NCBI RefSeq assembly: GCF_021134715.1
Contig: NC_060023.1
Span: forward strand, 8,556,001-8,620,000
Direction of reading: 5' to 3'
Length of the DNA stretch: 64,000 nt
Origin: Daphnia pulex
Taxonomy: Eukaryota; Arthropoda; Branchiopoda; Diplostraca; Daphniidae
The position numbers were made by a program, and so were the translations under genes. The notes below the pieces were generated by a model. The model ran no database searches and was not told the origin of the DNA. It saw only the letters and a list, made by a program, of their open reading frames with translations. This document shows, piece by piece, positions 23,083 through 63,084 of the stretch. How positions within the stretch are numbered: position 1 is the first letter of the stretch; each line of letters starts with the position of its first letter.

Positions 23083-26000
23083 TTATTGCTGATTGGGATC
23101 TGGAATTTCTCGTCTAGCCGTATAGATCCTTGCCCCGTTGCTGTTCAGGGGCACCCCAGGTCTATTGTTTGGTCGAACTGGTCTATACCTATTGACCTGT
23201 GGCTGCTGTTGCCCAGGCCTATCACGATTGAACTGGTGGAATCCCTGCTGCGGTCTGTATCGGTTCATCTGCTGCTGATGCTGCTGCTGATGCGGCAGCG
23301 GCTGACCAGGCCCTAATCCCCTGTCACGTTGCTGAACCATATTTCTGTTATGCACTTCCTGTGCCGGATTCTGCGGATTATCTCTCGGCTGCTGTTGGGG
23401 AGAATTTTTATCTTGGCCTCTGTTTCGGTTTCCCCGGTTTTCGCATTCCTTGGCCTTGTGTCCAACTTTGCCGCAAATTAAACATCCGCGGTCGTTAGGT
23501 GGTGGACCGTTGGAGATCAGAATTTTAGGGTTGAACAAGTATTCCTGCAAAAAAAATAGTTAAAGATAAAACCAAATTTATTCGCGAACCATCAATCATT
23601 TTCTTTTTCAAACCTCCAAGGACGAGAAGTTAGGGGGCAGTGCCCTAACGGGAGTCTGGAAAAACCGACGAGCAGTCACGAAAACACGACGGATGTAAGC
23701 ACCCACTTTGAAAAGATAAGATTCCAGTTAGGGACGACTATCCTTGAATAGTGGGCTACAGTTTCACAGAAATTGAACGGGCGAGAAATAACTTACTTCG
23801 AAGCGATACTCCCGATCCCAGATTGTGACTCAAGTCAAAAGGGTCTTCGATCGCGATAGGCCGATCCGTCCACATCTTTTCCAGACGGTACAGCGGTGGC
23901 AGCTGTCGGATGGAAACAACTTGCAAGCGATAATCGAAGAGCTTGGCATAATAGAGCAAGAATCCCAGCCACAAGGTTGAGGGCGGTTCGCGATTGGCAC
24001 CGTGATGTGGCCATACACGTCCCTGTAAAATGTCAAATTAATCGACCATAAATTTTTCCACCATTTCTTTTAGTCTTACCAAATCTTGGGCATTCTCAAA
24101 GAACCACGTGTCCCACCCCTCGACGATGTACTTTTTCCGGTCCACACCGTCGACCATGATCTACATAAAACACAATAAGTACGTCAGTAAACGGGCAATG
24201 TCGTTAAATAACATTAAGTACCTCTTGGAGTACGGGTATAACGGGCGGTTTGACTTGTTGCAAATAGTGGATGACCATTAAGGTGTAAGCGTAAGAAGAG
24301 AGCGATCCGCGGGATGCATCGCCGATCTCGCACTGCTTGGCTAGTAATTTCGCCATGTATCCCAGGATCTAATGTTACAAAAAAAAAACTTACAATGTTG
24401 AACATAAAGCAATGCATTGGCAGCATCTTACCCGAACGCGTGAATCAATTGCGCAATAAGTTGCGAGCAGTTTCGAATTACGCCGACCCAGTTGATTATA
24501 CAACGAAATATCCGATTCCAATCCAGTGGGCCTGTGACGCAGTTTCACTATAGGAACCTTGGCCGACGATATGGGAACACTTTGCGTGACGCGAGAAAAA
24601 CAGGTTGCCAATGACAGTTGATCCCCTTAAATCTTGTTTTACTTTACTTTACTTACATGTCGCAAAAGAATCGATTGCGCTTTAAGGTTCTGGCCAATTT
24701 CTTGACGATGGCAACGAAATCCAAGCCCTATAAATAGCAAACGAAATTATCCTGAATGTTCAAATATTTGCCAATCGGGTTTTCAATAAAAATTTGTTTA
24801 CCTTGCCGTCCTCGTTGGACTCGAACGTCAAACAGAGATCCACGTCGCTGTCGGCGAATCCAAATCCGTTGCACGATGATCCAAACATTGACAAAACAGC
24901 ATCAGCGTACTCGGTCCGAATATGCGTTTCGAGCTCCTTTTGGATGGTTTGTCTGTCAAAGAAAAACACACAAGATAAATTTAGATACTTTCGTGACACT
25001 AATAAAAATAAGAACGCACCTGTTGTTCGTATCCACTTCCCTCTGCGCAAAGTTGCGGAAAATATTCCAGCACACATTGTCCAGGAGCGCAAAATAGTTG
25101 AAGTCGGGTGGCGGTATGAAACCGACATCTGGCACTTCCAACTCGGTACACTTTAGTTTCGTGTGTCCGTCGCCGCCGCAAACGGTGCAAATAACTGGCA
25201 ACCGTTTGGAACGAAGGATTTTATCCGGCTGGAAATCCCATTTGACGTCTTCCTTTTTTAGGGCGGCCATTCGGGCGACAGCTTCCGCCGGAGTGCATTG
25301 CAGTGGATCATCATTTTTGGCTTCGCCGGGCAGTACAAGATGGACGAAAAGGGGTCCGTCGGCAGTTTGAGGGATCCAAAAATAGTGAAATATATTGCGG
25401 ATGCATTCAATAAAGAACTCGAAGGTTTGAATAGTCGCCATGAATGCCCCCATATTGACATTCCCATGAAAAGGATCCTCGACAGCAATACGTCGATTGC
25501 CCCAATTCTTCGTCGATCGCAGCAACGGTTCAATAGAGCGAACGCAGACGGCATGCTCATTATGAGTGAAGGTGTAAGCATAAAATTTCAACAGACCCAG
25601 CCAAAGTTGGCCGAGAGTCAATTCACGGGGTTTCCACTCTCCCCTGTCCTTCATTTCAAAGAATTCAGCAGCGGCTAAAGAAGAGAAACAATTTTAACGT
25701 ATATCATTGGGAATAATCGTAAACAACCGGACAGCGACTTACTCAAATAGTCGTCTTCAGCGTCACTTTTCTTCAGCTGGTGTAAAACGGGTAAAACATG
25801 ATCTTGTTGTAGATAGTACAGAACCATTAGAGTAAAAGCATGCGAAGGTAATGACCCCAATTCCGGCTGATCCAGGCAACAGATGCGAGCAAATGTGCGA
25901 AACGCAACCGTTAAGACGGCGAAACGTGGGTCAATCATTCGGTACTGTTGTAAAAGAACGGTCGTTTTATGAGCGGCCTCGCTCTCCACCACCATGGCAA

Positions 26001-27795
26001 AGGTAACGCCCATTTGCTCGTAATGAAAGTGGATGATGGGTGTTCGACAATTTAGATCGTCACTGATGTATCGGAATGTGTTGGAGGCGGGACCTTGCAA
26101 CCAAGACAGTATCTTTATGATGAGCAATCCATCTTTCTTGATGTCGGGAGAAATTTCAACTAATCCAACGTTGGAATTAGAAGCTCGCAGCCCAAGCTCT
26201 AGAAAAAGAATTATGATTCGCAGACATTCAAAATTTTAAAAAGTGAACGTACCTGTAACCACAGAACCATATGGTCGGATGCTGAAGCCGGGGAAAGCAG
26301 TTTCAATCATTTTTCTTAGGTTTTCAGTGGCAACTCTACGTTTTTCCAAATCCTCCTTTGATAGACAAGAACAATGAAAGATATCCTGGATGAATTGCCC
26401 AACCACTTCGACGATTTCAGGTGGTGGGGAAGGCATCAGAGAAGCCGTTTGGCGACTCATTTCTTGGTTTTGTAGTCGAACGTGCCGTTCGTCTTTTGTG
26501 TGACGATAAACTTCTGGTATGCTGCTGATGTGGAAACTGCAAAGCCGACAGTGGAAAACAGCTCTGGGAAATTTCGGGCTGATGTGCTTCAGTGGAAGAA
26601 CACCCCTTTTACGAAATTGATTAAGCTCGTTTTTGCGAATTTTGAATACAAGAGGTTGCTGGATTTCATTCCGTCTTGGTTTTGGTTCCTCTTCACTTGA
26701 GGAAGATGAACTATCGCTGGATCCATCATCAGATTTCTTAGGCTCATCTTTCTTCTCAGTTTTGGCCGGTTTCTTACGTTTTTGTTGGGGAAGTGTCGGC
26801 AAGACTACAATTTGGACAATCTCTTCTTCATCTTGAACAGCGGCATGAGGAATTTGTATACCATCAGCACGAGCATCAACTTCTTGAGCGACACTCTTTT
26901 TCTCTCCAAGTAAAACGACTGAGCGTTGGCTCACAACAGATGGAGGCAATGGAACAATTCCTGTAGGATAATTCAATTCTTGAAGGTGTTTCGGAACTTC
27001 GTCATATTCTGATGACAAAAGAGCCAAGTCAACACGTTCTTTCTTTTGAGTTTCCTGCTTTGAGCGAAGTTTTTCTAAGGATCTTGCTTTGGCCCCTTGT
27101 CCCTTGCGGTTCTGGTCAACAACTGGGGCTTGATCTTTCACGTTGTGAGAAACAGTTTCTGAAAGACTAGAGCTTTGCTTCTCTGGAACTGTTCCATTTT
27201 CTTGACGCAAAACTTGGTTGATGGTTTTGCGTGGCGCTTGGTAAATTTTAGGAGCAGGTTGGCGCCAATTGTGAGGGATCTCTTCGTTGCTTGCGGTCCG
27301 GTTGTAGACTTTAGTACCTTTCCTGGGAGAAGTTTTCGCTAATTCGTCATCCAAGTGCCAACGACGGTCGCGTATGAATCCTGTGATAGTAGTTGGCTGT
27401 TTTGGGAGGTTTTGTTGCTTTGAAGAATTGGTGTTTAATGCATGGTTCTTCTTTTCTTGTCCACCATCATTTTCTGTGCTTGCTGAAGCATTTTCTCTTA
27501 CTTTTCCAGCATCGTCAATATTTGCAGAGCTTGAAAGACCTTCACTTCTTTTCCTGTGCCTGACTCGAGGAGTTTTACGTCCTTTTGGGGTTGACTCTTG
27601 ATTTTTTCCTTGGGAAACTTTAGTGGCTTCAGAGCCATCAGCTCCTGCACGCTGGTTCAAACTTCCTTGATGCACTGTGTCAGGATTCTTGTGGACAGAC
27701 TCTGAAGATTTTGGCGTGTTGGCATTTTTGGTTATGCCCAGAAATCTTTTGAGATCTCCCTCTAAATGAGCCACACTATCATCACCTTCCGCCAT
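23083..27795 (-). CDS. TUT4/7: Terminal uridylyltransferase, TUT4/TUT7 (ZCCHC11/ZCCHC6) type
   Basis: Eleven exons on the minus strand join in phase to about 1343 residues: 27795-26253, 26198-25743, 25674-25020, 24952-24802, 24727-24657, 24579-24432, 24368-24222, 24160-24080, 24022-23797, 23705-23614 and 23544-23083. Residues 1-400 are a charged, disordered region. A C2H2 finger lies near 416-438. A first nucleotidyltransferase/PAP-associated module follows (about 500-770), where the acidic motif is degraded to SNSNVG. A CCHC knuckle (CTVCGGDGHTKLKC) sits near 835-850. The second, active module has GSSCNGFG, then ADSDVDLC (about 905-925). The last exon has a CCHC knuckle at 1211-1224 and a Gln/Pro/Arg-rich tail. 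The architecture equals vertebrate TUT4/TUT7, which add uridines to let-7 precursors and deadenylated mRNAs. Start chosen at the first Met of the long first exon. Confidence 0.94.
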
Positions 27796-28544
27796 TTAGT
27801 CAATTTTTAAAAGATGAACGATTCTGAAAATGTATGCACTACTTGGCAGGTAAATTCCAGACAGTTGATTTCAGATCCAAACTTGAATAGCAAGTGATAA
27901 AATTACCTAGAAAAAATATGTTCAACTAAGATAAGAACTGACGGAATTGGCACATAGTTCAAAATCAACAAACCATGTAGATTCAGTGCAGGCTGATAAG
28001 AAAAACATTTGGTTTAAGCTATGAGTAAGATAGTCTGATTACCATGGCGAACTTTCCAACAGTTTTAACAATAGGCCCTAAATAAAATTGCATAGTATTA
28101 CTCGTATCTTAAAACATGCCAAGGAAATTATAATTGTTTTTAAACATAAACGAAAGAAGCAATACTTGGAAAAGTGCCGAAATCAAAAAAATGAAGCCGC
28201 CATTTAAATGCTATTGCTTCGACATAGTAGACAACCTAATACAAAAATAAAAATTTGGGTCGGAGTCGGATCTCCTTCAGATCAGATTTTTGAATTTGGC
28301 AACGAACAATAAACAGCAGAGTTAAAACAAGAGGCGGAAATGACTCCCGTATATTTCACGATTTTTTTATGTGAAAATCAATGACATGAATTAAAAGTTA
28401 AACGTAACAAAATGTAAAACAATAAGCTCAATTTACAAACCAAAACAGAAAGATTTAAGTTTCTGACTTCGGACGGAGTTTTGGACGTTACGAATTATTC
28501 GAGTTACAGGATTGTTTTACCTTTCTAAGGTAGTTATTTTGTAT
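27796..28544. other. Head-to-head spacer between TUT4/7-like gene and the PAP2-like cluster
   Basis: AT-rich non-coding sequence separates the minus-strand uridylyltransferase from the plus-strand cluster. The half near 27800 should carry the uridylyltransferase promoter; no TATA box was seen there. The conserved promoter module of the first cluster gene starts at 28545. No open frame of note. Confidence 0.6.
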
Positions 28545-28733
28545 TGAACATTATTCGTTAAATTGTAAGTTAACGAAAAATCAATTTAAAAAATAATTTT
28601 GTCCAGTTAATTCCCCAAAAATCTGCAATAAATTGCCGGTTCGACAACTGCAGAGCAACTTTCCGTCCACGGAGGGCATATATACGACCGCTGAACGAAG
28701 CGGATAATCATCAAACTAAAACTCGTTTTCACC
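28545..28733 (+). promoter_or_regulatory. Conserved cluster promoter, copy A
   Basis: About 190 bp also found upstream of genes B, C and E. It starts with a perfect 8-bp inverted repeat, TTCGTTAA (28554-28561) and TTAACGAA (28570-28577) with an 8-bp spacer. A block containing GCCGGTTCGACAACTG follows, then a TATA box in GGGCATATATACGACCGC (28677-28684). ATCATCAAAC about 30 bp downstream of the TATA box is a plausible initiator, leaving a 5' UTR of about 25 nt. Conservation across paralogues suggests function or recent duplication. Confidence 0.75.
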
Positions 28734-29870
28734 ATGACGAACTTCGAAAAAGTGAAAAACGCATTTTCAAAAGTCACCAATCTAAAACCTGATTTCACAA
28801 TGATGAATGAAAAAGTGAAAAAGGCTTTTTCCAAATCGACCAAATTCTTATCATCCAAGAAAGAAGTGATCGTATTTCTGATGTTACTTATGATTGCGTG
28901 GATCTTTCTGCTGTGTTTTGTCAAACTACCTCCTGATCTACAAGACATGAGCGGAAAACCAATTAAGGTAACATGCAACGATGACAAAATCAACTACCCG
29001 ATGACATCCAAGATCCAAGATCCGACAAAGAAATTTGATGACTCTTATGCACATGAAATAGGTACAAGCTTTTTCAGCCTCTTAATAAGCTTTATCATTA
29101 TAAAAAAAAGAAGACAAACAGAAAATTCTGATTCATCATGGTGTTCAATCATACTGCTTTTCGTTCAACTTGTGCTATGGACTCTATCGTTAATTACTGG
29201 AAGCGTTTTCGTCTGGCTATGGGTGAACAACGGCCCTACTGAAACGTTGGCTCCCAACTTCTTAGCAGCCTGCAAACCTCAGGGGCTTGATTTGCTTTGC
29301 AATCCGGACAGTCATCCTGAAGATTGGAATCCGGTTGTTTGGGTGACATGCACAACACCTCCTGAAATGTGGATTCCGGCCCTATCCAATGCGCTGCCCC
29401 CTTTAGCTGCAGTACAAGCTTACCTGACGTTTGCAGCGATAATTTATATCATTTACAACTGGAAGTGGGAGGGGGAGTGGCCGACAGTTTTTCAGTTAAT
29501 CAACTTGGCAGTCTGTATAAACTTCGCCGGGTGGGTTGTATACCACGTCATCTCGAACAATGTTGCGAATTTCGACCAAGAATTTGTTTCCGGCTACTTA
29601 AAATGCTTCGCTGTAGCTTGTGTGTGGTTAGCAGTGGATAGTTTTTGGCAGAAAACTAAAAAAGAATTAAAACTTCCACGTCACTGGAATGACCCCACAC
29701 CCCAAACTGGACCAATTCCTACTAACCCGACACCTTCGTTGCACGAACCTCCTGCGGCAACAGAATCAACAACGCGAGAAACGGAAAACGCTTATCAGAC
29801 CATTTACCCGGATCTGCCGCCGGAATATGAATATCCCCCAAGTTACGGGTCCTCGGCCACCCGATACTAA
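28734..29870 (+). CDS. PAP2/lipid phosphate phosphatase-like membrane protein A (degenerate active site, PPxY tail)
   Basis: Single-exon gene of 378 residues, first of five tandem paralogues. Hydrophobic segments lie near 44-63, 106-124, 137-164, 213-242, 251-274 and 288-304, the six-span plan of lipid phosphate phosphatases. Family landmarks persist: CNDDKINYP (81-89; compare CND..I.YP in PLPP proteins), LAPNFLAACKP (172-182; compare LRPHF..C.P), then Cys in the loop before span 4. The catalytic motifs are gone: RP of motif C1 is AP, PSGH of C2 is PALS, and the SR and His of C3 are replaced around VANFDQEFVSGY. N and C termini should be cytosolic. The tail holds PPEY (362-365) and PPSY (368-371), WW-domain ligands. 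Residues 1-40 contain two copies of an EKVK..FSK module. Homology to PAP2 is inferred from motif order. Function unknown; hydrolysis is unlikely. Confidence 0.85.
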   Translation: MTNFEKVKNAFSKVTNLKPDFTMMNEKVKKAFSKSTKFLSSKKEVIVFLMLLMIAWIFLLCFVKLPPDLQDMSGKPIKVTCNDDKINYPMTSKIQDPTKKFDDSYAHEIGTSFFSLLISFIIIKKRRQTENSDSSWCSIILLFVQLVLWTLSLITGSVFVWLWVNNGPTETLAPNFLAACKPQGLDLLCNPDSHPEDWNPVVWVTCTTPPEMWIPALSNALPPLAAVQAYLTFAAIIYIIYNWKWEGEWPTVFQLINLAVCINFAGWVVYHVISNNVANFDQEFVSGYLKCFAVACVWLAVDSFWQKTKKELKLPRHWNDPTPQTGPIPTNPTPSLHEPPAATESTTRETENAYQTIYPDLPPEYEYPPSYGSSATRY

Positions 29871-30089
29871 ACGTTCGGGACGGGACAGCTACCAATTGAG
29901 ATCCATTTGTCATCAAAAATGTTATTGACTGGATTAAAATGCATGACGATCGAATTCAATAAATAAATTTCAAACTGTTCATTTCATTTGTTATTTCGAA
30001 ATTATTTAAATGAAACCTATAGTATCATAAGTTCTATAGCTCTAATTTTACGCTCGAAATAATTTGTCTAATAACTGGTTTAACCCATA

Positions 30090-30255
30090 CAGAAACATGG
30101 CTCTGCTGATCACAGGTTTTCGTAAGAAAAAAAAAAATTCTTGATCAACAATCCCGCGCGGGTTAAAATGCATAAGATTTAAATGATTTCGTGATGTGAA
30201 AGGATTTTTTAATGTAAAACATCACTGAATAGCATCATCAATTAAGCGTGTTTAA
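30090..30255 (+). repeat. Conserved intergenic block, copy 1
   Basis: This segment downstream of gene A recurs after genes B, C and D. Shared words include TCTTGATC, GCGCGGGTTAAA and CATAAGATTTAAATGATTTCGTGATGTGAAAGG, with local differences. It shows that the duplicated unit is about 1.8-2 kb and includes the spacer, not only the gene. Confidence 0.7.
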
Positions 30256-30351
30256 ATAAAAAAAAACAATTGCTACGCTGGCACTGTCGAAGTTTAACTT
30301 TTTTCGATGCAAATTAAGAGTTATGTAATTATCGCAAGTTCATAATTTCTT

Positions 30352-30545
30352 TTGAACATTATTCGTTAAATTGTAATTTAACGAAAGATCAAATTAAAAA
30401 ATAATTTTGTACAGTTAATTCTCCCCAAATCTGGAATAAATTGCCGGTTCGACAATTGCGGAGCAACTTTCCGTTCACGAAGGGCATATAAACGACCGCT
30501 AGACGAAGCGGATAATCATCAAATTAAAACTCGATTTCATTCACC
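30352..30545 (+). promoter_or_regulatory. Conserved cluster promoter, copy B
   Basis: Same order as copy A: TTCGTTAA, an 8-bp spacer, TTAACGAA near 30363-30386, then the GCCGGTTCGACAA block, a TATA box (TATAAA at about 30487) and ACGACCGCTAGACGAAGCGG. The start codon follows about 60 bp after the TATA box. Confidence 0.75.
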
Positions 30546-31637
30546 ATGACGAAATTCGAAAAAGTGAAGAACGCCACTTCAAAATCGATCAGATTCTTGT
30601 CGTCCAGCAGACGAGATTCGATCGTATTCCTGATTCTGTTGATTGTGTGGACGTGTTTGCTCTGTTTGGTCAAGAAACCTGACCATCAATCAGACACGGA
30701 GATAATATGCAACGACGAACGTTACATAAACCACCCGATGGCATCACGAGAAAGGATAGTGTGGAAACAAATCTGCCTTATCTTTGGACTAGCTTGGTCC
30801 TGTTTCAACTTTGCCACCATTGAAATTCTCCACGGATTGGCCGGAAGACAAAAAAAGACGGCTTTACTCAAGTTTACCTATCGCGCTCTACTTTGTATAG
30901 CATCAATATTGACTGGATCCTTTCTCGTCTGGTTGTGGGGTAACAATCTTTATTATACCGAAACAAGATTGGCTCCAAATTTCTTGGCCGTCTGCCGACC
31001 ACTCGATCTGTTATGCAGTCCCGACAGTATTGTTCGGGTCAAGTGTACAACACCTGCTGAAATGTGGATGCCGGCCCTATCCGATTCGCTGCCCACATTA
31101 GCGGCAATCCAAGCTTACCTGATGGTGATAGCGTCCGTCAAGATGGCACACTGCGTGCTCTTAGCGGTGGCGACGGTGGATATTAAGTCGATAATCTTTG
31201 GCCTGATTACGCTAGTCATCAATGTAGCGATTACTTTGGCCACTGCTTGCTTGATCATCACTTGCAACGAAGCAAGTCTCAACATTGATTTCGTTTCCGG
31301 CTACCCGAAGAGCTTTATTGTTGCTTGTTTTTGGCTAGTGGGGGAATACTATTGGAGGTTGAGTGGAATTGAAGGTCCAACACTTCCACGTTATTGGAAT
31401 GACGAAGAGCTGGGCGATGAAGAAGCCATACCCGAAAACGACCAACTCCCTACAAACCCGACACCTTATTCGACCACAAGTAACGACCCCACAGCCCAAA
31501 GTGGCCCTACTAACCTGACATCTTCGTTCTTTCTTCGAGAAACAGAAAATGCATATCAAACCATTTACCCGAAACTGCCGGAATATAGGCCTAATGAATA
31601 CCCCCCTAGTTACGAGGACTTGGTCTTACGGTATTAA
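30546..31637 (+). CDS. PAP2/lipid phosphate phosphatase-like membrane protein B
   Basis: Single-exon gene of 363 residues, paralogous to A, C, D and E. It has one N-terminal EKVKNA module, then a first membrane span near 25-43. CNDERYINHP (55-64) matches the CND..I..P landmark. LAPNFLAVC (142-150) replaces the catalytic R-P motif, and the C2 position reads MPALSD where PSGH is expected. The segment around NEASLNIDFVSGY replaces the SR/His/Asp motif. Five further hydrophobic segments give the six-span plan. The loop between LLCSP and CTTP is shorter than in A, C and E, lacking the HPEDWN stretch. The cytosolic tail ends with one PPSY (353-356), followed by acidic EDL. Function unknown; probable pseudo-enzyme. 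Confidence 0.84.
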   Translation: MTKFEKVKNATSKSIRFLSSSRRDSIVFLILLIVWTCLLCLVKKPDHQSDTEIICNDERYINHPMASRERIVWKQICLIFGLAWSCFNFATIEILHGLAGRQKKTALLKFTYRALLCIASILTGSFLVWLWGNNLYYTETRLAPNFLAVCRPLDLLCSPDSIVRVKCTTPAEMWMPALSDSLPTLAAIQAYLMVIASVKMAHCVLLAVATVDIKSIIFGLITLVINVAITLATACLIITCNEASLNIDFVSGYPKSFIVACFWLVGEYYWRLSGIEGPTLPRYWNDEELGDEEAIPENDQLPTNPTPYSTTSNDPTAQSGPTNLTSSFFLRETENAYQTIYPKLPEYRPNEYPPSYEDLVLRY

Positions 31638-31849
31638 ACGAGTTCGGTACAGCTACCAATTGAGATCCATTTGTCATCAATAAATGTTATCATTGTCTGG
31701 ATTTAAATGTATGATGACGATCGGATTGAATAAAATAAATTTGAAAATTTCAAGTTCACTTCATTTGTTATTAATTTTTTTTTAAAAGTTAGTTAGACGT
31801 ATCATAAATTCCAGTTTTACGCTTAAAATCATTTCCAACAAAACCAACA

Positions 31850-32050
31850 GTAACATGACGGTCGTTCCCAGCACTCTACTCTCACTGGTTCTATTGGTCG
31901 CAGGTATACGTAAAAAAAACAGTCTTGATCTAGAAGCCCGTGCGGGTTAAATAAATACATAAGATTTAAATGATTTCGTGATTTGAAAGGTTTTTTAATG
32001 TTAAAGGTCACTGAGTAGCAAAAGCAGTTAATAAGCGTAGTTAAATTTAA
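31850..32050 (+). repeat. Conserved intergenic block, copy 2
   Basis: The segment recurs downstream of gene B, with the GTCGCAGGTATACGTAAAA start, AGCCCGTGCGGGTTAAATA and CATAAGATTTAAATGATTTCGTGAT words. It matches copies after genes A, C and D. Confidence 0.7.
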
Positions 32051-32151
32051 AAAAAAATTGCTATTAGAGGCAGGCAGCACAAATCCAAGCCAAATGTACT
32101 GTTGTCAATTACAATTACAGGTTATGTAATTGTCGCAAGGTAGTTATTTCT

Positions 32152-32346
32152 TTTGAACATTATTCGTTAAATTGCAAGTTAACGAAAAATCAAATTTTAA
32201 AATAATTTTGCCCAATTAATTCTCCGCAAATCTACATTAAATTGCCGGTTCGACAACTGCGGAGCAAGTTTCCGTCCACGGAGGGCATATATACGACCGC
32301 TAGACGAAGCGGAAAATCATCAAACTAAAACTCGATTTCATTCACC
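32152..32346 (+). promoter_or_regulatory. Conserved cluster promoter, copy C
   Basis: Carries TTCGTTAA and TTAACGAA with the 8-bp ATTGCAAG spacer, the GCCGGTTCGACAACTGCGG block, a TATA box in GGGCATATATACGACCGC near 32283-32300, and the AAACTAAAACTCGATTTC leader ending at the start codon. Confidence 0.75.
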
Positions 32347-33531
32347 ATGACGAAATTCGAAAAAGTTAAAAACGCACTATCAGAGGTCACCAAAATAAAA
32401 CCTGATTTCACAATGATGAATGAAAAAGTGAAAAACGCACTTTCAAAAGTCATCAAACTAAAACCCGATTTAACAATGACGAAATTAAAAAAAATTAAAA
32501 ACGTCGTTACCAGATTCTTGTCTAGACAAGATGTGATCGTATTCCTAATGCTAGCGATCGTCTGGACTTGTTTGTTCTGTTTCGTCATACCCATTGCAGA
32601 TACACTAGCAGACATGAAGAACAAACCAATTAAAGTTACATGCAACGACGAAAAAATTAACTACCCGATAGTATACAGAAGCGCGCGCTCGCAAATTGAA
32701 ATGTTTGCACATGTAACGTGTCAAATATTTGGCAGCATGTTACTAACCTTATTCATATGGATAAAAATAAACCAATCAGAAAAGAAATCTATCATACGTT
32801 ATTTCGGTTATTTCTTTAGATTTCTGCTATGGATTTTATCGTTAATTACTGGATCAGTTTTCGTATGGCTATGGGTGGACAACGGCCCCACTGAAACGTT
32901 GGCTCCCAACTTCCTAGCCGCCTGCAAACCTCGTGATCTTGATCTCCTTTGCAGTCCCGAAAGCCATCCTGAAGATTGGAACCCGGTTGTTTGGGTGACA
33001 TGCACAACACCTCCTGACATGTGGATTCCGGCCCTATCCAATGCGCTGCCCCCTTTAGCTGCAGTACAAGCTTTCCTGATGTTTGCAGCGGTACTACAAA
33101 TGATTTACTACTGTCAGTGGAAGGAGCTAGTGCAGCGGGTGGTGTCAGTTTGTAAGCTGGTTCACTTGGTAGTCTGTATATTCTTCGCCGGGTTAATTGT
33201 ATCCAACCTCATCTCAGATAATGTTGCCAATTTCGACAAAGAATTTGTTTCCGGCTACCTGAAATGCTTTGCTGTTGCTTGTGTGTGGTTAGCAGTCGAT
33301 AGTTTTTGGCAGAAAACTAAAAAAGAACCGAAACTTCCACGTTACTGGAATGACCCCCCACCCCAAGGTGGCCAAATTTATACTAAACTGACACCTCCGT
33401 TGCACAAACCTCCTGCGACGACAGGATCAACAACACGAGAAACGAAAAATGTATATCAGACCATTTACCCGGATCTGCCGCCGGAATTTGAATATCCCCC
33501 AAGTTACGGGGATTCGTTCTTCCGGTATTAG
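32347..33531 (+). CDS. PAP2/lipid phosphate phosphatase-like membrane protein C
   Basis: Single-exon gene of 394 residues, the longest of the five. Its N-terminus carries three tandem copies of the roughly 19-residue module of the type EKVKNALSKV.K.KPD.TM, against two in A and one in B, D and E. The rest is closest to A: CNDEKINYP, LAPNFLAACKP, the HPEDWNPVVWVTCTTPP loop, and IPALSNALPPLAAVQA at the position of the PSGH motif. The C3 region reads VANFDKEFVSGY, so no catalytic His or Arg remains. Six hydrophobic segments are visible. The tail has PPEF (first PPxY lost) and PPSY (384-387). Function unknown; a pseudo-phosphatase scaffold or adaptor is inferred. Confidence 0.85.
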   Translation: MTKFEKVKNALSEVTKIKPDFTMMNEKVKNALSKVIKLKPDLTMTKLKKIKNVVTRFLSRQDVIVFLMLAIVWTCLFCFVIPIADTLADMKNKPIKVTCNDEKINYPIVYRSARSQIEMFAHVTCQIFGSMLLTLFIWIKINQSEKKSIIRYFGYFFRFLLWILSLITGSVFVWLWVDNGPTETLAPNFLAACKPRDLDLLCSPESHPEDWNPVVWVTCTTPPDMWIPALSNALPPLAAVQAFLMFAAVLQMIYYCQWKELVQRVVSVCKLVHLVVCIFFAGLIVSNLISDNVANFDKEFVSGYLKCFAVACVWLAVDSFWQKTKKEPKLPRYWNDPPPQGGQIYTKLTPPLHKPPATTGSTTRETKNVYQTIYPDLPPEFEYPPSYGDSFFRY

Positions 33532-33749
33532 ATCCGTTTACCTGTAACAGTGTAGCTATGTTATCAAATAATTTTATCATTGATTTAAATGTATGACGAT
33601 CGAATATAGAATAAAATAAGTTTCAAGTTCACTTCATTTGTTGTTTCACAATTTTTTTTTAGTTCAACGGATCACAAGTGTTCCAGCTTTAATTTTACAC
33701 TTTAAATCATTTCCAATGTCCAATGTCTAACTGGTTAAACATGACAGAA

Positions 33750-33955
33750 ACATGACGACCATGACCAGCAGAACTCCATGGCTCTACTGATGGTCGCAGG
33801 TTTCCATAACTCCATAAAAAATAAAAGTCTTAATCTAGAATCTAGATGCCCGAGCGGGAAAAACATAAGATGTAAATGATTTCGTGATGTGAAAGGAATC
33901 TTGAATGTAAAAAAAATCACTGAATATAGCAGCAGCAGTTGAGCGTTTTCAATTT
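33750..33955 (+). repeat. Conserved intergenic block, copy 3
   Basis: Downstream of gene C, the block with GGTCGCAGGTTTCCATAA, GCCCGAGCGGG and AAGATGTAAATGATTTCGTGATGTGAAAGG is present again, diverged from the copies after A and B. Confidence 0.65.
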
Positions 33956-34068
33956 TTTAAACAATTTCTAGGCTGGCACAAATCTTAGAAATCTAAGCCA
34001 AGTAATTTTGACGATACAAATTACGAATTGTAGCCAATTATGAACGATGTGGCAACCGGCAACCCTGT

Positions 34069-34096
34069 CTTTCCCCCAACGGCTACGCTGGGAAAG
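34069..34096 (+). repeat. Hairpin in unrelated sequence upstream of gene D
   Basis: CTTTCCC at 34069-34075 and GGGAAAG at 34090-34096 form a perfect 7-bp inverted repeat with a 14-bp loop. It lies in a GC-rich stretch (about 34040-34150) that is not found upstream of the other four cluster genes. Confidence 0.55.
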
Positions 34097-34279
34097 AAGG
34101 GGAGGCTGGGGACTGTGGGGTGAGACCGGGTGAGATTTCGCGCGGATTAGACGCATATACTTAAGTGTGGTATCTAATTTCAAGAATATTGCTAGTTTAA
34201 AGTCGAATTTAGTCATTTACAAGTTAACAAACACGAGTCAACGTTACCGTCTTTTAGTTTTTCACAACACGTTCACAGA

Positions 34280-34337
34280 GTATACGACCGCTAGACGAAG
34301 CGGAGAGTCATCAAACTAAAATTCGATTTCATTCACC
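34280..34337 (+). promoter_or_regulatory. Truncated cluster promoter upstream of gene D
   Basis: Only the TATA-proximal part of the cluster module is recognisable: TATACGACCGCTAGACGAAGCGG, then ATCAAACTAAAATTCGATTTCATTCACC before the ATG. The TTCGTTAA/TTAACGAA inverted repeat and the GCCGGTTCGACAACTG block are absent upstream. Confidence 0.65.
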
Positions 34338-35387
34338 ATGTCGAAATTCGCAAAAGTGAAAAATTTCGTTTTTACCAAATCGACCGAATTCTTATCGTCC
34401 AGAAAAAATGACGTCGTAATCCTGATGCTAATAGTTTCGTGGCTTTTTCTGATCTGTAATGTCAAGGAACCGGAAGATTTACCACCATCAGTCAAAGTAA
34501 AGTGCAACGACATCAATATTAACCATCCGATGGCATCACAGGCAATGTCCTCATGGAAATCATTCTTCATTTTATTTGGATTGGCTTGGTTCTCAGCCCT
34601 GAGTATAGGTATTCCTTTAACGCACGAATTCAAACGCATTGGTAGAGGAACGACTTTTCTCAAGTTTGGCGGTCGCTGTTTTCTATGGATCGTCTCAATA
34701 TTTTATGGATTTCTTTTCGTCAGCATTTGGACCATGAGAAACAGTGCTTCTGAAACTTTAGCCCCAAACTTCCTAGCCGTTTGCCAACCTCATGGGCTTG
34801 ATCTCCTTTGCAGTCCCGACAGTCCAGTCGATCGGGTTGTTTCGGTGAATTGCACAACACCTCCTGAAAAGTGGATTCCAGCCCTATCCAATTCGCTGCC
34901 CCCTTTAGCTGCAATCCAAGCTTACCTGATGGTTTTAACATTTGCAACTTGTATACACTACTTTCGCTGGAAGACAATTTGGGATAAAATCAGTGGCCTC
35001 ATCACGCAAGTCATCAATGTAGCGCTGACAGTGTGCACCGGATGCTTCATCATCTTCTGCAACGAGGCAAATTTCAACACAGATTTCGTTTCCGACTACG
35101 TCAAGAGCGCTGTTGTGGCTTGTGCGTGTATAGCGATCGATTATTATTGGTGCGAGACTGGAATTGAAGATCCAATACTTCCACGTTATTGGAATAACGT
35201 GCCGGGCTATGAAGAAGTCATACTCGAAAACGACCAACTCCCTACAAACCCGATACCTTCGCGAGACGAACCTCCAGCAACGACAACAGGAACAACATCC
35301 GGAAATGAGGACAATCCGCCACCGTACTCGAAGCTGCAACCATCAAGAAATGGAGATCCACCGCCGGATTACGATAAATCGGTTTAA
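34338..35387 (+). CDS. PAP2/lipid phosphate phosphatase-like membrane protein D
   Basis: Single-exon gene of 349 residues. One N-terminal AKVKNF module precedes span 1 (about 30-48). CNDININHP and LAPNFLAVCQP match the family landmarks, again with AP in place of the catalytic RP. IPALSNSLPPLAAIQAYL sits at the PSGH position. The C3 region reads CNEANFNTDFVSDY; the last Asp could correspond to the Asp of the ancestral motif, while the Arg and His are absent. The tail differs from A-C: it carries PPPY (327-330) and PPDY (342-345). With E it forms a sub-group sharing HPMASQAMSSWK and the NPPPYSKLQ tail. Its upstream region has lost most of the shared promoter, so its expression may differ. Confidence 0.85.
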   Translation: MSKFAKVKNFVFTKSTEFLSSRKNDVVILMLIVSWLFLICNVKEPEDLPPSVKVKCNDININHPMASQAMSSWKSFFILFGLAWFSALSIGIPLTHEFKRIGRGTTFLKFGGRCFLWIVSIFYGFLFVSIWTMRNSASETLAPNFLAVCQPHGLDLLCSPDSPVDRVVSVNCTTPPEKWIPALSNSLPPLAAIQAYLMVLTFATCIHYFRWKTIWDKISGLITQVINVALTVCTGCFIIFCNEANFNTDFVSDYVKSAVVACACIAIDYYWCETGIEDPILPRYWNNVPGYEEVILENDQLPTNPIPSRDEPPATTTGTTSGNEDNPPPYSKLQPSRNGDPPPDYDKSV

Positions 35388-35699
35388 CTTTTTCGATATT
35401 AATGACAGTACGAGACTTCAATTGAAATTCATATATGCCATGGAAATTTCTACTCAGATTGAACTATGTGTTTGGTATGTTCAAATAAAATTCTTTTCAA
35501 CCTAAATTTTTATTTGTTGTATTTTTTATTATTATTATTAAAATACGCATATAGCTCGAATCTATCGCTCATATGACCAATATTCCGATGTATGTCGAAC
35601 AGGCGTAACGCCAATCCAAATATGAGGTCCAAATTCAAATTGAGATTAATCTACTGTACATGATTAGCTCCTTGGTAACTTGGTAACGAGGCTTTCTAT

Positions 35700-35930
35700 A
35701 CAACTGATGGTGCTGGTGCAGTTAACGTTGACCTATACGGCTCTGCTAGTTGCAGACTTTTGTAAGAAAAAATTCTTGATTTTAAAAACGCGGATATTAT
35801 TATTTCAAAAGCCCGCGCGCATATTACATAAGAAGTAAATGATTTTTCGTGCTGAAGGATTTCTAAAATGTAAAAAATCACTGAAATAGCAACAATCAGG
35901 CTAAAATTGAGCGTATTCAAATTAGAAACT
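35700..35930 (+). repeat. Conserved intergenic block, copy 4
   Basis: Downstream of gene D, a diverged copy of the spacer block: TTGTAAGAAAAAATTCTTGAT, AAGCCCGCGCGC and AAGTAAATGATTTTTCGTGCTGAAGGATT. No clear copy was seen after gene E. Confidence 0.6.
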
Positions 35931-36024
35931 ATTTACAAGGCTAGCTAGTACTGGCTAATTTAAGCCAAGTGTACTTTTGACAATACAAATTACGAGTTAT
36001 GGGATTGTTGCAAGGTAGTTATTT

Positions 36025-36221
36025 CTTTTGAACATTATTCGTTAAATTGCAAGTTAACGAAAAATCAAATTTAAAAATAATTTTGTCCAGTTAATTCTCC
36101 CAAAATCTGCAATAAATGGCCGGTTCGACAACTGCGGAGCAAGTTTCCGTCCACGGAGGCAATATAAACGACCGCTGGACGAAGCGGATAATCATCAAAC
36201 TAAAACTCGATTTCATTCACC
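36025..36221 (+). promoter_or_regulatory. Conserved cluster promoter, copy E
   Basis: TTCGTTAA, ATTGCAAG and TTAACGAA are present near 36037-36062, followed by GGCCGGTTCGACAACTGCGG, a TATA box (TATAAA at about 36163) and ACGACCGCTGGACGAAGCGGATAATCATC. The arrangement equals that of A, B and C. Confidence 0.75.
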
Positions 36222-37310
36222 ATGACGAAATTCGCAGAAGTGAAAAATGCATTTTCAAAATCGACCAGATACTTGTCGTCCAGAAAATATCTGGTAATAT
36301 TCCTGATGCTCCTGATTGCGTGGTTCTTTTTCTTTTGTTTTGCCAAGAAACCGGAAGATCAATCAGACTTATTGAAGACAAAACCAGTCAAAGTAAAGTG
36401 CAACGACCCCAACATCAACCATCCGATGGCATCACAGGCAATGTCCTCATGGAAAAAATTCTGCATTTTATTTGGATTGGCTTGGTTCTTGACCCTGAGT
36501 ATAGGTATTCGTCTAACCCACGAATTCAAAAAGAAAGAAGAAGGAGCGACTTTTCTCAAGTTTTGCGTTCGCCCTCTGCTATGGATATTGACGTTATTCA
36601 CTGGATCCCTTTACGTCGGGTGGTGTATGAACAACGGCCCCACTGAAACGTTGGCTCCCAACTTCCTAGCTGCCTGCAAACCTCATGGACTTGATCTCCT
36701 TTGTAGTCCCGAAAGCCATCCTGAAGATTGGAACTCGGTTGTTTGGGTGACATGCACAACACCTGCCCAAATGTGGATCCCAGCCCTATCCAATGCGCTG
36801 TCCATATTAGCGGCAGTACAAGCTTATCTGATGGTGATAACGATTGTTAACGTTTGGTACTACTTTTGCTGGGAGGGGATTTGGGGTAAAATCAGTTGCC
36901 TCTTCCTGCAAACTACCAATGTAGCACTTACGGTGGCCACCGCTTGCTTGATCATCTTCTGCAATGAAGCCAGTTTCAACATGAAATTCCTTGACGACTA
37001 CGCATTGAGCTTTTTCATTGCTATTGTGGTGATATTGGTAGATTTTTATTTGTGTCTGGGTGGAGTTGAAGATCCAGAACTTCCACGTTACTGGAATGAC
37101 GTGTTGAATAAGGAAATCATCCCCGAAAAAGGCCAACTCCCTACAAACCTGATACCTTCGCAATACGAACTTGACAACAACTTGGCGACAACAGGACCCA
37201 TAGCCGGAGATGACGACATCGATGCCAATCCACCACCGTACTCGAAGCTGCAAGCAGGAAATGACGATCCACCGGATTACCGTAAATCGTTTTCACTCAT
37301 CCAATTGTAA
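36222..37310 (+). CDS. PAP2/lipid phosphate phosphatase-like membrane protein E
   Basis: Single-exon gene of 362 residues, last of the cluster. The N-terminal part (CNDPNINHPMASQAMSSWK, GLAWF.TLSIGI) and the tail (NPPPYSKLQ) match D. The middle segment, from NNGPTETLAPNFLAACKP through SHPEDWN.VVWVTCTTP to IPALSNAL, matches A and C almost exactly, also at the DNA level, which suggests gene conversion. The catalytic motifs are lost as in the others; the C3 region reads NEASFNMKFLDDY. The tail has PPPY (337-340) and PPDY (350-353). Six hydrophobic segments. The tail ends with a unique SFSLIQL. Function unknown. Confidence 0.85.
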   Translation: MTKFAEVKNAFSKSTRYLSSRKYLVIFLMLLIAWFFFFCFAKKPEDQSDLLKTKPVKVKCNDPNINHPMASQAMSSWKKFCILFGLAWFLTLSIGIRLTHEFKKKEEGATFLKFCVRPLLWILTLFTGSLYVGWCMNNGPTETLAPNFLAACKPHGLDLLCSPESHPEDWNSVVWVTCTTPAQMWIPALSNALSILAAVQAYLMVITIVNVWYYFCWEGIWGKISCLFLQTTNVALTVATACLIIFCNEASFNMKFLDDYALSFFIAIVVILVDFYLCLGGVEDPELPRYWNDVLNKEIIPEKGQLPTNLIPSQYELDNNLATTGPIAGDDDIDANPPPYSKLQAGNDDPPDYRKSFSLIQL

Positions 37311-50243: not shown

Positions 50244-53200
50244 TTATTCGTTGATGATGTCCTTCTTGTGTTGGTGGTGGTCGGTGCAATGTTTCTTGAT
50301 GGGCGGATCGTCTCCATCTTCGTCGTCTTCCTGGATCAGATAAGAGGGCGGAGCCACCGAATGCGGCAGCGAGACGCAAGTGGGCGACGGAGCCCTCGAC
50401 TCCAGGTCCAGATAATCCTTGACAGCGTCCAGATAACCTGTAGTAACATATTTTATTGGTTTTCCAACAAACAATTAAGACATTTCACATTTATTTTCTT
50501 CCGGTTCAACGTGGCAATTAGCCGAGTCTAATAAACCCCCCGCTGATGTACATTATCGACTGTGAAATGTTTTCAATGGCCACTTAATGTCCGAAACGGC
50601 GTCACCCGTTTCCAGTAATCGATTGCCTTGTTTTTCTCGGGAGAGTTGGCAATGGCCAACGGGCAATTTCAACCGGCCGTCCAACGCCACAAATGTTTGA
50701 AACGGTGAGATATGTACTACGTACCTTTGACGCAATTCCATATCTTGCCATCCTTGAGGAGATTGGTGGCCGCTTCGATGTCGGGTGCCATGTAGCGATC
50801 CTTGTCCCAGGGACGGACGACGGCCCGGACGGTCCGGTAGACTTCCTCCAGCGGCACGGTGGTCTTGAGCGGACGCAGGAATTCGATGGCCTGGCAAGCG
50901 GCGAGCAATTCGATGGCGATGACGCGCTCCACGTTGGCCACCACCTGCAAAGCCTTGCGGGCCGAGAATCCGCCCATCGAGACGTGATCCTCCGTTCCGG
51001 CGCTGGTCGAGAGCGAGTCGACGCTGCTGGGATGGCAGAGGACCTTGTTCTCAGAGACCAGGGAAGCGGCCGTGCAGTGGGCTATCATGAAGCCGGAATT
51101 GAGGCCGCCTTCGCGCACCAAAAAGGCCGGCAACTCGCTCAGCACCGGATTCACCAGCCGCTCGATCCGGCGCTCGCTCATCGACGCCAGTTCATGAACA
51201 CCTTTTTTTTTAATGGGATAAATTTGGTTGACAATTGATTTAATTAACTTTGATTGGAAGAATTAAGTTATTTACCAATGGCAAGGTAATCCAAAGCTTT
51301 GGCTGGATACTCTCCGTGAAAATTACCTGCCGAGATAATCTATTGGCCATTTAATTTAATTAATTTAACCTTAATTCGATTACACATAATTGAGGTAATA
51401 ATGAGTACCTCTCCGCGTTCGGGTAACACTAGAGGATTATCAGTGGCGCTGTTCATTTCCGTCTTGATAATGTTGTGAACAAAGTCGATGGTATCGTGAA
51501 CGATTCCGTGAACCTAATTTTTAAATTTGAATGAATTAATTGGAATACCAGACGAAACCAAATCAATCACGTATACTTGAGGGCAGCATCTCAAAGTATA
51601 GGCGTCCTGGACGCGGTCGCAGAAGCGATGACTTTCGGCTATGGCCGACGGATAAGCCTCCGAGTGAAGCAAGGATCGCAGGCGACGGGCGACGTTGATT
51701 TGGCCGGGGTGCGGGCGGAGCTGGTGGACGTCACTGTCAAAGGCCCTGGACGAGCCCTTGAGAACCTCGAGGGAGAGAGCGGCCACCACGTCAGCCTGTT
51801 TGGCAATCAGCTCACATCTGTCGACCGCTTCGGCTCCAAGTGCCGTGATCATCTGGGTCCCGTTGATCAATGCCAATCCTTGTCAAAGTCAGAAATGAAC
51901 AAAATGTGTCGTCGTCGTTAATTTTTGGTTTACAAAAACAAAACAACCAAATTTGACTATTTAACACAAAAAGAAGAGTCTCTCCATTGTTTGGACGGCC
52001 CACATGACGACATCTGGACGTCATTTTCTTTTATTTTGTTGTTGGTTGGTTGGTTTCTTTTGCGGTGATGCGCCAAATCTTATTGCGGATTTGTTCTAGA
52101 CATTTTTCAGTAGTATTGTTATTATTATTACCTTCCTTGGCTCCCAGCTTAATCGGTTCCAGTCCATTGCTCTCCAGGCAGAGCTTGGCGTCCGTCCAAC
52201 CGGTCCGATGGCTCCACATCTGTTTGTTTGGTTTAGTTATGCACAGTATGTATATTATTGCAACAACTCTATCCTGGTGACGGATTCATGGGCTAAAGAG
52301 AGAGAAAAACATTCTTTCGGGGGCCGTGGAACAGTTTCTATGAACGTCAGGTGGATTTTTTTTTGCTTTTCCCTGATTGATATTCAGCTGAGAAATGTGT
52401 CAAAAATCTCGTAGCGACAGAGTAAATCCTTTCAGACACTATTTTTTTGACGAAGGATCCTGTCCATCAACAATAAGCAACAACTCAGAACTACAGAATT
52501 AGCGCAGCAGCAGCAGCAGCAGAGATCTAGGACATGGAACCGAAAATATGGGCGAGCAAAGTAACGACCCAACTCATTTTCTCTGCATGTCATTAAGGCG
52601 GCCAGGAGAATATGGGCCAGCTGACTCATAATTCTCCAGTCAGAAATTGCGCAACAGAAAGAAACCTCCTCCCCTATTTGCATATGTCTGTGCTGGTAGT
52701 CATTTTGAAAATAAGAATTTGAATCGCTTACCTTCCCTTCCCCAATCATACCGAGGGCCAGGTGGGACAATGGGGCCAAGTCTCCACTGGCCCCGACAGT
52801 TCCTTGTTCGGGGACCCAGGGCAGACAGGATCGATTGAAGGCGTTGATCACCTGGTTGAGTGTCTTGATGGAAATTCCGGAGTAACCTTTGGCCAGCGTG
52901 TTGATCCGCAGGGCCATCAACATCCGAACGCGCTCCAGGGAAAGTGGCTGGCCCACTCCGGCCGAATGGGAGCGAATCAAATTCTCCTGCAACTCCTCCA
53001 ACTTGTCCGGCGAGATGACAGTCCTCGCAAACTGAAATTTTCAATTTTCAATTCAGAATTAAACGACGTCATTAATCGCCAGGAATTTCAAAAATTTCTT
53101 TTACCTTGCCGAATCCGGTCGTAATTCCGTAGGCCACCTGGCGTTCGTTTAAAAATAGAACCAAAGAAATTAGACAATCAGCTGCATAGTTCTCGAACAA

Positions 53201-55973: not shown

Positions 55974-57824
55974 ATGCTGTCCATCTTTACACTCCGGTTC
56001 TGCACGATTTTGTTTATTATCCAATGGAGCCGAGCCGTTCCAGGTAGTACAAACTGCATTTTTGTTCTTCTTCTTCTTTCGGTCACGAAGGAGCTCACAG
56101 GAAGGGGCGCGCGACCTAATAATGAATTGGGGCTAACACATTTTAATTATCGGAATCGACCAAATTGTTTTCGCAACTCTTTTTAAATGCAAAAACAAAA
56201 CAAAACAAATCAGTTTCAGAGACGAGCGACCTGGCCGAATTGCGGGATAGCGTTTCCAAGCTGTGGAAAGCCCTCAGGGAATTGGAATCTGAAGTTCGTG
56301 AAAGTTTCGACATTCACGCCGCTATAGAAAATCACGAACACCAGGTCTAGTTCATTTACGAAAATTGGTTCTCTAACGTTACATTACCCCATCTTCACGC
56401 CATTTAGTTTCCTAGCTGCTAACAAGTAAAAAAATATAACCACCCCCCAAACTTTTTCACAGGTACATCATCTGGGTCACGAGGATAATGGCCACGAGAT
56501 CCACCATTCCGAACGGCATCTGAAGGTTTTTCCCCCCTTGCTGAGCTATAAATTTTATTTTAAGATTTTATTATCACGAACCAATCCATTAAACTCCGTT
56601 CGCTATTTCCTCATTTTTAGCATCTCGAGCAAGTCCACGGGCGAACGGTAGCTGGGCCAGCCGGCATTGAGCCCCATAAACCACACACTCCCGACGAAAA
56701 GGTTCTCTGAAACTGCATTATTTTTTTTAAATTGGAACTTATGGCAAAGATAATCTAATTGGAATACTTTCTCATTTTACGAACGCCGTAAAAAAAACAG
56801 GAAGTCCTTCGCCACGAACACGAGTTCCATCACGCCAACGCAAGTTTCGAAACGGAGGAAGAACACAAAGCCCATCACGATGAAAAGATGTTGAAGCATT
56901 TGGAGCTGGACCACGGCCACGGAGAGCATAACGGCATCCACCACGGCAAAGTAATTACTATACTAAAAATAGGATAAAAATATTAATGATACCATTTGCT
57001 AATCAAATCTATACTTACCTCATCTCCAGATGAATAAGGAGATTGAGCATGAAATTGACGTTCATTTCATGTTGAGGAATCACGACGGTCACGCTGCGCA
57101 TCACAACGAAAATCTGCTTAAACATCTGGAAGATGACGACGGACATGGACCAGCAGCAGATCGGCCCAAGCCAGTAACGACGCCCAAACCACCCAGGGGC
57201 TCCAAGACTTATCAAGCAGTTTGCGAAATGAAGCCGAATAAGGCCCTGCAGAGGACTAAACACAACATCGTTGGCAAAGTCGCTTTCACTCAGACGACGG
57301 GTGGCCCTCTAAACGTTCACGTCAATCTAAGGGGATTGCGTACAAACGGGAAAAGTCTGCACGGATTGCACGTTCACGAGCTCGTCCCAGATGAGGATGG
57401 CAATTGCAACCAAGCTGGAGGACACTTCAACCCAACTAGCTCTGTTCACGGAGGACCAAAGTCTCGTACAAGGTATTCTTTTTGTTTCCAGGATGACACG
57501 ACGTGAAATCGCCATTTTCCGCTTTAGGCACGTTGGAGATTTCGGGAACGTGGAAGCTATTGAAAACCAAGGTATTAACGCGATGTTTACCGATTCTCTC
57601 GCGACGCTGATGACTGGACCTAATTCCATTCTACACCGAACCCTTGTGGTAACTGAAACCTAAAATGGCGTATAATTTGAATAAAAACTTAAATCTGTTG
57701 TTACCTAAAAAAAATCTAGATCAAAGAGAAGGAGGATGATTTGGGACAAAATCGTGATACAGAGAGTCTAGCCAATGGCAATACTGGCCGTCGTTTGGCT
57801 TGTTGCATCATTCGAGCTGTTTGA
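55974..57824 (+). CDS. Secreted Cu/Zn superoxide dismutase with His-rich N-terminal extension and altered copper site
   Basis: Eight exons, 55974-56043, 56220-56344, 56463-56525, 56621-56701, 56801-56950, 57030-57472, 57528-57648 and 57720-57824, join in phase to about 385 residues. Residues 1-23 form a signal peptide. A helical segment (ETSDLAELRDSVSKLW) and three His/Glu-rich stretches ending in motifs like KHLE.D.GHG cover about 60-205. The SOD domain occupies about 223-385. Metal ligands seen are HVH (277, 279), His295 in GGHFNP, His303 in HGGP, His312 and Asp315 in RHVGD. The last copper ligand, His in the usual VVHEK, is Lys353 (LVIKEKEDDLG). The active-site Arg is kept at 376, and disulphide Cys are present. 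Normal superoxide dismutation at copper is therefore doubtful; this is inferred. The chain is about twice the length of a typical SOD. Confidence 0.93.

Positions 57825-59386: not shown

Positions 59387-63084
<3,698 letters not shown>

Follow-up and report, generated by a model that had tools for sequence, protein, structure and literature searches.

What might a lipid phosphate phosphatase become once its active site has been erased? This question is raised by a 64,000-nucleotide stretch of the Daphnia pulex genome (assembly GCF_021134715.1, contig NC_060023.1, positions 8,556,001 to 8,620,000; here called the window and numbered from its first letter), which carries a tandem array of five genes resembling those for lipid phosphate phosphatases (PLPPs; PAP2 superfamily). 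An earlier note made from the sequence had described the array as a family of pseudo-phosphatases. On sequence evidence, the five genes very probably belong to a pseudoenzyme family that derives from PLPPs and has lost hydrolysis, and we tentatively propose that its members have been turned into membrane adaptors carrying PPxY motifs. The genes are as follows.

Gene 1, 28734 to 29870, plus strand: 378 amino acids, two PPxY motifs.
Gene 2, 30546 to 31637, plus strand: 363 amino acids, one PPxY motif and an LPEY in the tail.
Gene 3, 32347 to 33531, plus strand: 394 amino acids, one PPxY motif.
Gene 4, 34338 to 35387, plus strand: 349 amino acids, two PPxY motifs.
Gene 5, 36222 to 37310, plus strand: 362 amino acids, two PPxY motifs.

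The array had been described as five single-exon genes on one strand. All five plus-strand reading frames are indeed intact and uninterrupted, and their exon structure is read from these open frames. The other window proteins are 43 to 67% identical to that of gene 1 and align with it end to end (n = 5). The PLPP-like plan and landmark order also held up: in the alignment of the five proteins, CND..I..P, LAPNFLA.C.P, and the second-loop cysteines vary little or not at all. Both AlphaFold2 models of the window proteins, although of low confidence, contain six long membrane helices, and a hydropathy scan found six in genes 1 and 4 and only five above threshold in gene 2. PLPPs have both termini inside the cell and the catalytic loops outside (PMC9520309, in the part available); by analogy, the window proteins would expose the conserved loop outside the cell and keep the tail inside.

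To characterize the former active site, we tabulated the catalytic columns of motifs C1, C2, and C3 across 18 family rows, the window genes included, with the C2 register taken from a gapless alignment anchored on QAY/SAY. None of the 18 rows carries the motifs of an active lipid phosphatase (KxxxxxxRP, PSGH, and SRxxxxxH). In the window genes, the C1 lysine is replaced by N (Y in gene 2) and the C1 arginine by A, so that RP reads AP, as first noted; the C3 arginine is replaced by V, I, or L and the histidine by A, again in line with the earlier description. Its placing of C2 at PALS had to be revised, since PSGH aligns with LPPL, LPTL, or LSIL about 6 residues downstream, a position with which a HMMER alignment to human PLPP3 agrees. 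Across the 18 rows, the C1 lysine column holds N (10 rows), Y (3), F (2), and H, R, and S (one each), and the arginine column holds A (17/18) or S (1/18) next to a proline retained throughout (18/18). The PSGH column reads LPPL in 6 rows, LPTL in 5, LPTS in 3, and LPPI, LPKL, LSIL, and SPTF in one each; its histidine is gone from 18/18 rows, and its serine is kept by gene 5 only. The C3 arginine (now V, I, L, or A) and histidine (now A or S) are gone from 17/17 alignable rows, with the broken copy C10:10.94 gapped at this motif and so outside the count. Intact motifs elsewhere in these proteins would have undone this picture, yet a whole-protein scan for K.{6}RP, SGH, SR.{5}H, and R.{5}H found them in 0/18 family rows, whereas they were present in 4/4 canonical PLPP genes of the same genome (in which the proline of RP is an inferred junction residue).

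Descent from PLPPs is less apparent from single window proteins. A search with the PAP2 profile had been suggested as a check; when the five window proteins were searched singly against Pfam, the best match had an E value of 0.066, and PAP2 was unlisted for 5/5 at E values up to 10. A search of the Protein Data Bank (PDB) with the gene 1 protein alone also returned no match. Pfam is blind to the window proteins, and one divergent paralogue (L025, on contig C4) was needed to bridge them to PLPPs. With this paralogue included, a ten-member profile searched against the PDB matched human PLPP3 (E = 3.1e-10), PLPP2 (9.7e-7), and PLPP1 (6.9e-6 and weaker), and the contig C4 protein alone matched PLPP1 (E = 6.9e-6). 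PLPP1 to PLPP3 were the sole significant PDB matches of both queries, over ~210 to 230 residues and in register, which establishes sequence homology over the PAP2 core through the contig C4 relative. Comparison of the family profile with the four canonical PLPP genes by hhalign gave 97.4% (E = 9.1e-12), or 93.3% (E = 2.8e-7) without the two deepest family members, and 0.1 to 0.2% in the reversed control. With the single PSGH-to-HHW exon the match was weak (11.6% and 1.6%), so the link to PLPPs depends on the full-length comparison. In the tree, a long branch (2.35) separates the family from PLPPs, and treekit gave a long-branch warning; thus, we leave the founding PLPP unassigned. The family resembles PLPP1 to PLPP3 (wunen type, PF01569) in its six-span plan, CND..I.YP-like first loop, L.P.F...C.P motif, loop positions, and C-terminal helix (homology at E = 3e-10). 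It differs from them in lacking the C1, C2, and C3 residues and introns, in carrying a PPxY tail, and in lying beneath Pfam detection.

We then asked which parts of the proteins are constrained, using the ratio of nonsynonymous to synonymous substitution rates (dN/dS; Nei-Gojobori, 16 pairs, 9 bootstrapped). Seven intact bootstrapped pairs had dN/dS of 0.37 to 0.59 with upper limits of 0.64 to 0.81, and one further pair of intact copies (gene 2 with C7:3.567) gave 0.62 without bootstrap; it is well supported that intact family members are under purifying selection. Segments were compared over pairs of 12 members, with borders drawn manually on gene 1, and the most constrained was the following.

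29232 to 29390, plus strand: former active-site loop, running from C1 and stopping just short of C2 (gene 1 residues 167 to 219), mean identity 81%, dN/dS 0.22.

The N terminus came next (identity 0.72, dN/dS 0.40). The segment that holds the C2 position itself had an identity of 0.60 and a dN/dS of 0.73, and transmembrane helices 2 and 5 and the inner loops evolve fast (identity 0.16 to 0.29).

The earlier note had overlooked a proline-rich C-terminal tail with PPxY motifs, which is present in 12/18 rows, all five window genes among them. Seven rows (including genes 1, 4, and 5) have two motifs and five have one; gene 1 provides an example.

29817 to 29846, plus strand: PPEYEYPPSY in the C-terminal tail (gene 1 residues 362 to 371).

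Five of the six tail-less rows are truncated or frame-broken before the tail and the sixth is the deep contig C4 member; thus, the tail was probably gained after that member diverged. The PPxY motifs of genes 4 and 5 stand in a sequence context unlike that of genes 1 to 3. Three of the four canonical loci have a PPxY in the second extracellular loop, and there is no other on the gene strand of any of the four. Composition-preserving shuffles reached the observed PPxY count in 24 of 20000 trials for gene 5, 167 for gene 4, 199 for C7:7.000, and 480 for gene 1, an enrichment that is suggestive, not decisive. The genome also contains HECT-domain sequence (59 exon-level matches).

The tail is also found on another gene, as seen in the following pair of features.

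29750 to 30356, plus strand: 3' end of gene 1 with the next 486 bp, a homologue of the 3' end of locus L049 (84% over 614 columns).
Contig C3, 176000 to 179500, minus strand: L049, a coiled-coil frame (844 codons open) with the family PPxY tail at 177878 to 177985.

Since the DNA match extends 486 bp past the gene 1 stop codon, the coiled-coil gene has acquired, in frame, the 3' end of one of the family's genes. A separate frame downstream of the coiled-coil frame looks KH-like by eye. An orphan tail copy, L050 (contig C10, 16108353 to 16108496, plus strand), occupies a 76-codon frame by itself, and the part of gene 1 that it matches begins at 29729, near the start at 29750 in L049.

Genome searches, whose counts are lower bounds, bear out the expansion that had been proposed. 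At least ~20 loci belong to the family, spread over four contigs: besides the five of the window there are six others on contig C7, while C9 has three, C10 five, and C4 a single one. Several of them are truncated or carry stops, and two further places (C3:177878 and C10:16108353) hold the tail only. About 670 kb from the window, C7:7908193-7913887 holds an inverted trio that mirrors genes 1 to 3 and pairs with them in the tree at 100% bootstrap. Dispersed copies share noncoding flanks with gene 1, which outline the unit below.

28311 to 30362, plus strand: duplicated DNA unit of gene 1 (approximate), from matches to L011, L013, and L010.

The matches cover 28311 to 30146 (L011), 28323 to 30362 (L013), and 28309 to 31337 (L010), with 411 to 425 bp of upstream DNA common to all and 492 bp downstream in L013. 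These common flanks indicate that the family spread as DNA. Retroposition as a route of spread among copies is disfavored, because the flanks of L010, L011, and L013 match gene 1 on both sides. It may nonetheless have caused intron loss in the founder. Introns interrupt the homologous region in the canonical PLPP genes, of which this genome has at least four, whereas family reading frames have none. A start-region module, KVKNA.SK...KPDFTM, occurs two times at the N terminus of gene 1 (28734 to 28850) and three times at that of gene 3 (32347 to 32510), a pattern that in-frame duplication of the start region, 5' untranslated letters included, would produce.

How might such proteins act? Two kinds of precedent, the topology of PLPPs and the PY motifs of other membrane proteins, favor a membrane adaptor. 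The PPxY/LPxY motifs of the multi-pass proteins NDFIP2 and TMEM127 recruit NEDD4-family ligases, and the likeness of our family to NDFIP1/2 and TMEM127 (multi-pass proteins with PPxY/LPxY in a predicted cytosolic region) is one of design only, by description (PMC12720080, in the part available). An intronless founder would have lost its catalytic residues; the main clade would then have gained a proline-rich cytosolic PPxY tail and expanded through DNA duplication, both tandem and segmental. On the outside of the cell, the former active-site loop would bind, but not hydrolyze, a ligand or a partner protein; the tail would recruit proteins with WW domains, among which NEDD4-family ubiquitin ligases are the likeliest, and the bound partner would be ubiquitinated and then internalized. 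For the statement as a whole, that these are PLPP-derived pseudoenzymes turned PPxY membrane adaptors, we put the chances slightly short of even. The mechanism proper, ligand binding with ligase recruitment, is drawn by analogy and is a shade more tentative; ligand, ligase, and target are all putative. It is doubtful that the family forms a novel type of multi-pass adaptor for ubiquitin ligases, in which the dead loop would serve as an extracellular binding module, coupled to NEDD4-type ligases by the acquired PPxY tail, and the tail would be a mobile module fused also onto a coiled-coil protein.

Several observations weigh against PLPP-derived adaptors. The tail (dN/dS 0.55) is less constrained than the loop (0.22), contrary to the expectation of equal constraint, and PPxY is not clearly above composition in gene 2 (2741/20000 shuffles) and gene 3 (4676/20000). 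On the side of descent, the five window proteins alone reach PLPP3 at an E value of 0.01 only, with PLPP1 matches out of register. The top Pfam match of L025 is a short unrelated model (E = 0.024), with PAP2 second (E = 0.17) and below the cut-off; its PF01569 score is 12.1 bits versus a gathering threshold of 27.2. Structure prediction with overlay on PLPP1 had been another suggested check. The models were poor (predicted local distance difference test [pLDDT] score of 38 for the five full proteins and 45 for the trimmed five), both too weak for PLPP1 overlay or pocket mapping. A Foldseek search with the trimmed model did rank human LPP1 first to third, which is weak support, as Foldseek and VIA-align template modeling scores were all below 0.5.

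The nearest rival to the adaptor shares with it the loss of hydrolysis. The proteins could be regulators like the plasticity-related genes PLPPR1 to PLPPR5, binding lysophospholipid in the membrane or joining active PLPPs in mixed oligomers and so shaping lipid-phosphate signaling, with a tail that governs only their own turnover. PLPPRs are PLPP derived, lack lysophosphatidic acid (LPA) phosphatase activity, and modulate LPA signaling (PMC9520309, in the part available); the constraint on the C1-C2 loop and the presence of at least four canonical PLPP genes in the same genome also fit. However, our family has lost more catalytic residues than PLPPR1, in which mutation of C2/C3 residues still had an effect (same source and part), and the retention of the tail in 12/18 rows and its capture by another gene hint at a function of its own. 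We regard such regulators as possible, if unlikely. It is improbable that the family is merely decaying, with recurrent duplication keeping copies that have no strong function. Truncated or stop-containing loci, and two pairs with truncated copies (dN/dS 0.77 and 0.90, intervals including 1), speak for decay, but the upper limits of the seven intact pairs and the loop speak otherwise, as do the five window frames, all open though the synonymous divergence (dS) of genes 2 and 5 is 0.71. More improbable still is continued catalysis through a new active site within the same loop. The strong constraint on the loop and its Asp, Glu, Thr, and Cys residues, invariant among the five window proteins, speak for this reading; against it, Pfam recognized no known hydrolase residue pattern and the phosphate-binding residues are gone. 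That the proteins are unrelated to PAP2 and owe their likeness to helical composition and chance motifs is scarcely credible given the in-register PLPP1 to PLPP3 matches, the negative reversed control, and the Foldseek ranking; no fold unrelated to PAP2 emerged, though the fold models are weak.

The earlier note knew of no described group with this combination, which is too strong for dead PLPPs generally: they are a known kind, represented by the vertebrate PLPPRs. Our family fits the description of PLPPRs as PLPP-derived proteins with altered catalytic residues and, like them, has a proline-containing tail, predicted here to be cytosolic (PMC9520309, in the part available). It differs in that the family motifs are gone altogether, the genes are intronless, and they have expanded in one genome (PLPPRs being compared by description only); no PPxY tail is mentioned for PLPPR1 to PLPPR5 in the available part of PMC9520309. 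No paper listed in searches of the open-licence literature in PubMed Central described a family that joins complete motif loss and expansion with a PPxY tail, and the words phosphatase, PAP2, and wunen do not occur in PMC12102780. The family is apparently a separate case, and a more extreme one.

Four other frames in the window resemble known proteins by eye. On the minus strand, 23083 to 27795 looks like a terminal uridylyltransferase-type nucleotidyltransferase and 50553 to 53040 like a histidine ammonia-lyase. On the plus strand, 57003 to 57506 looks like a Cu/Zn superoxide dismutase-like protein and 62119 to 63084 like an actin.

PLPPRs are the best-described catalytically dead relatives of lipid phosphate phosphatases. 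In the Daphnia family, catalytic residues have been erased, yet no other part is as conserved as the loop in which they lay, which makes it a natural test of the loop's noncatalytic role. Should NEDD4-type ligases prove to be bound by the PPxY tails, the family would illustrate how an enzyme can turn into a ligase adaptor.

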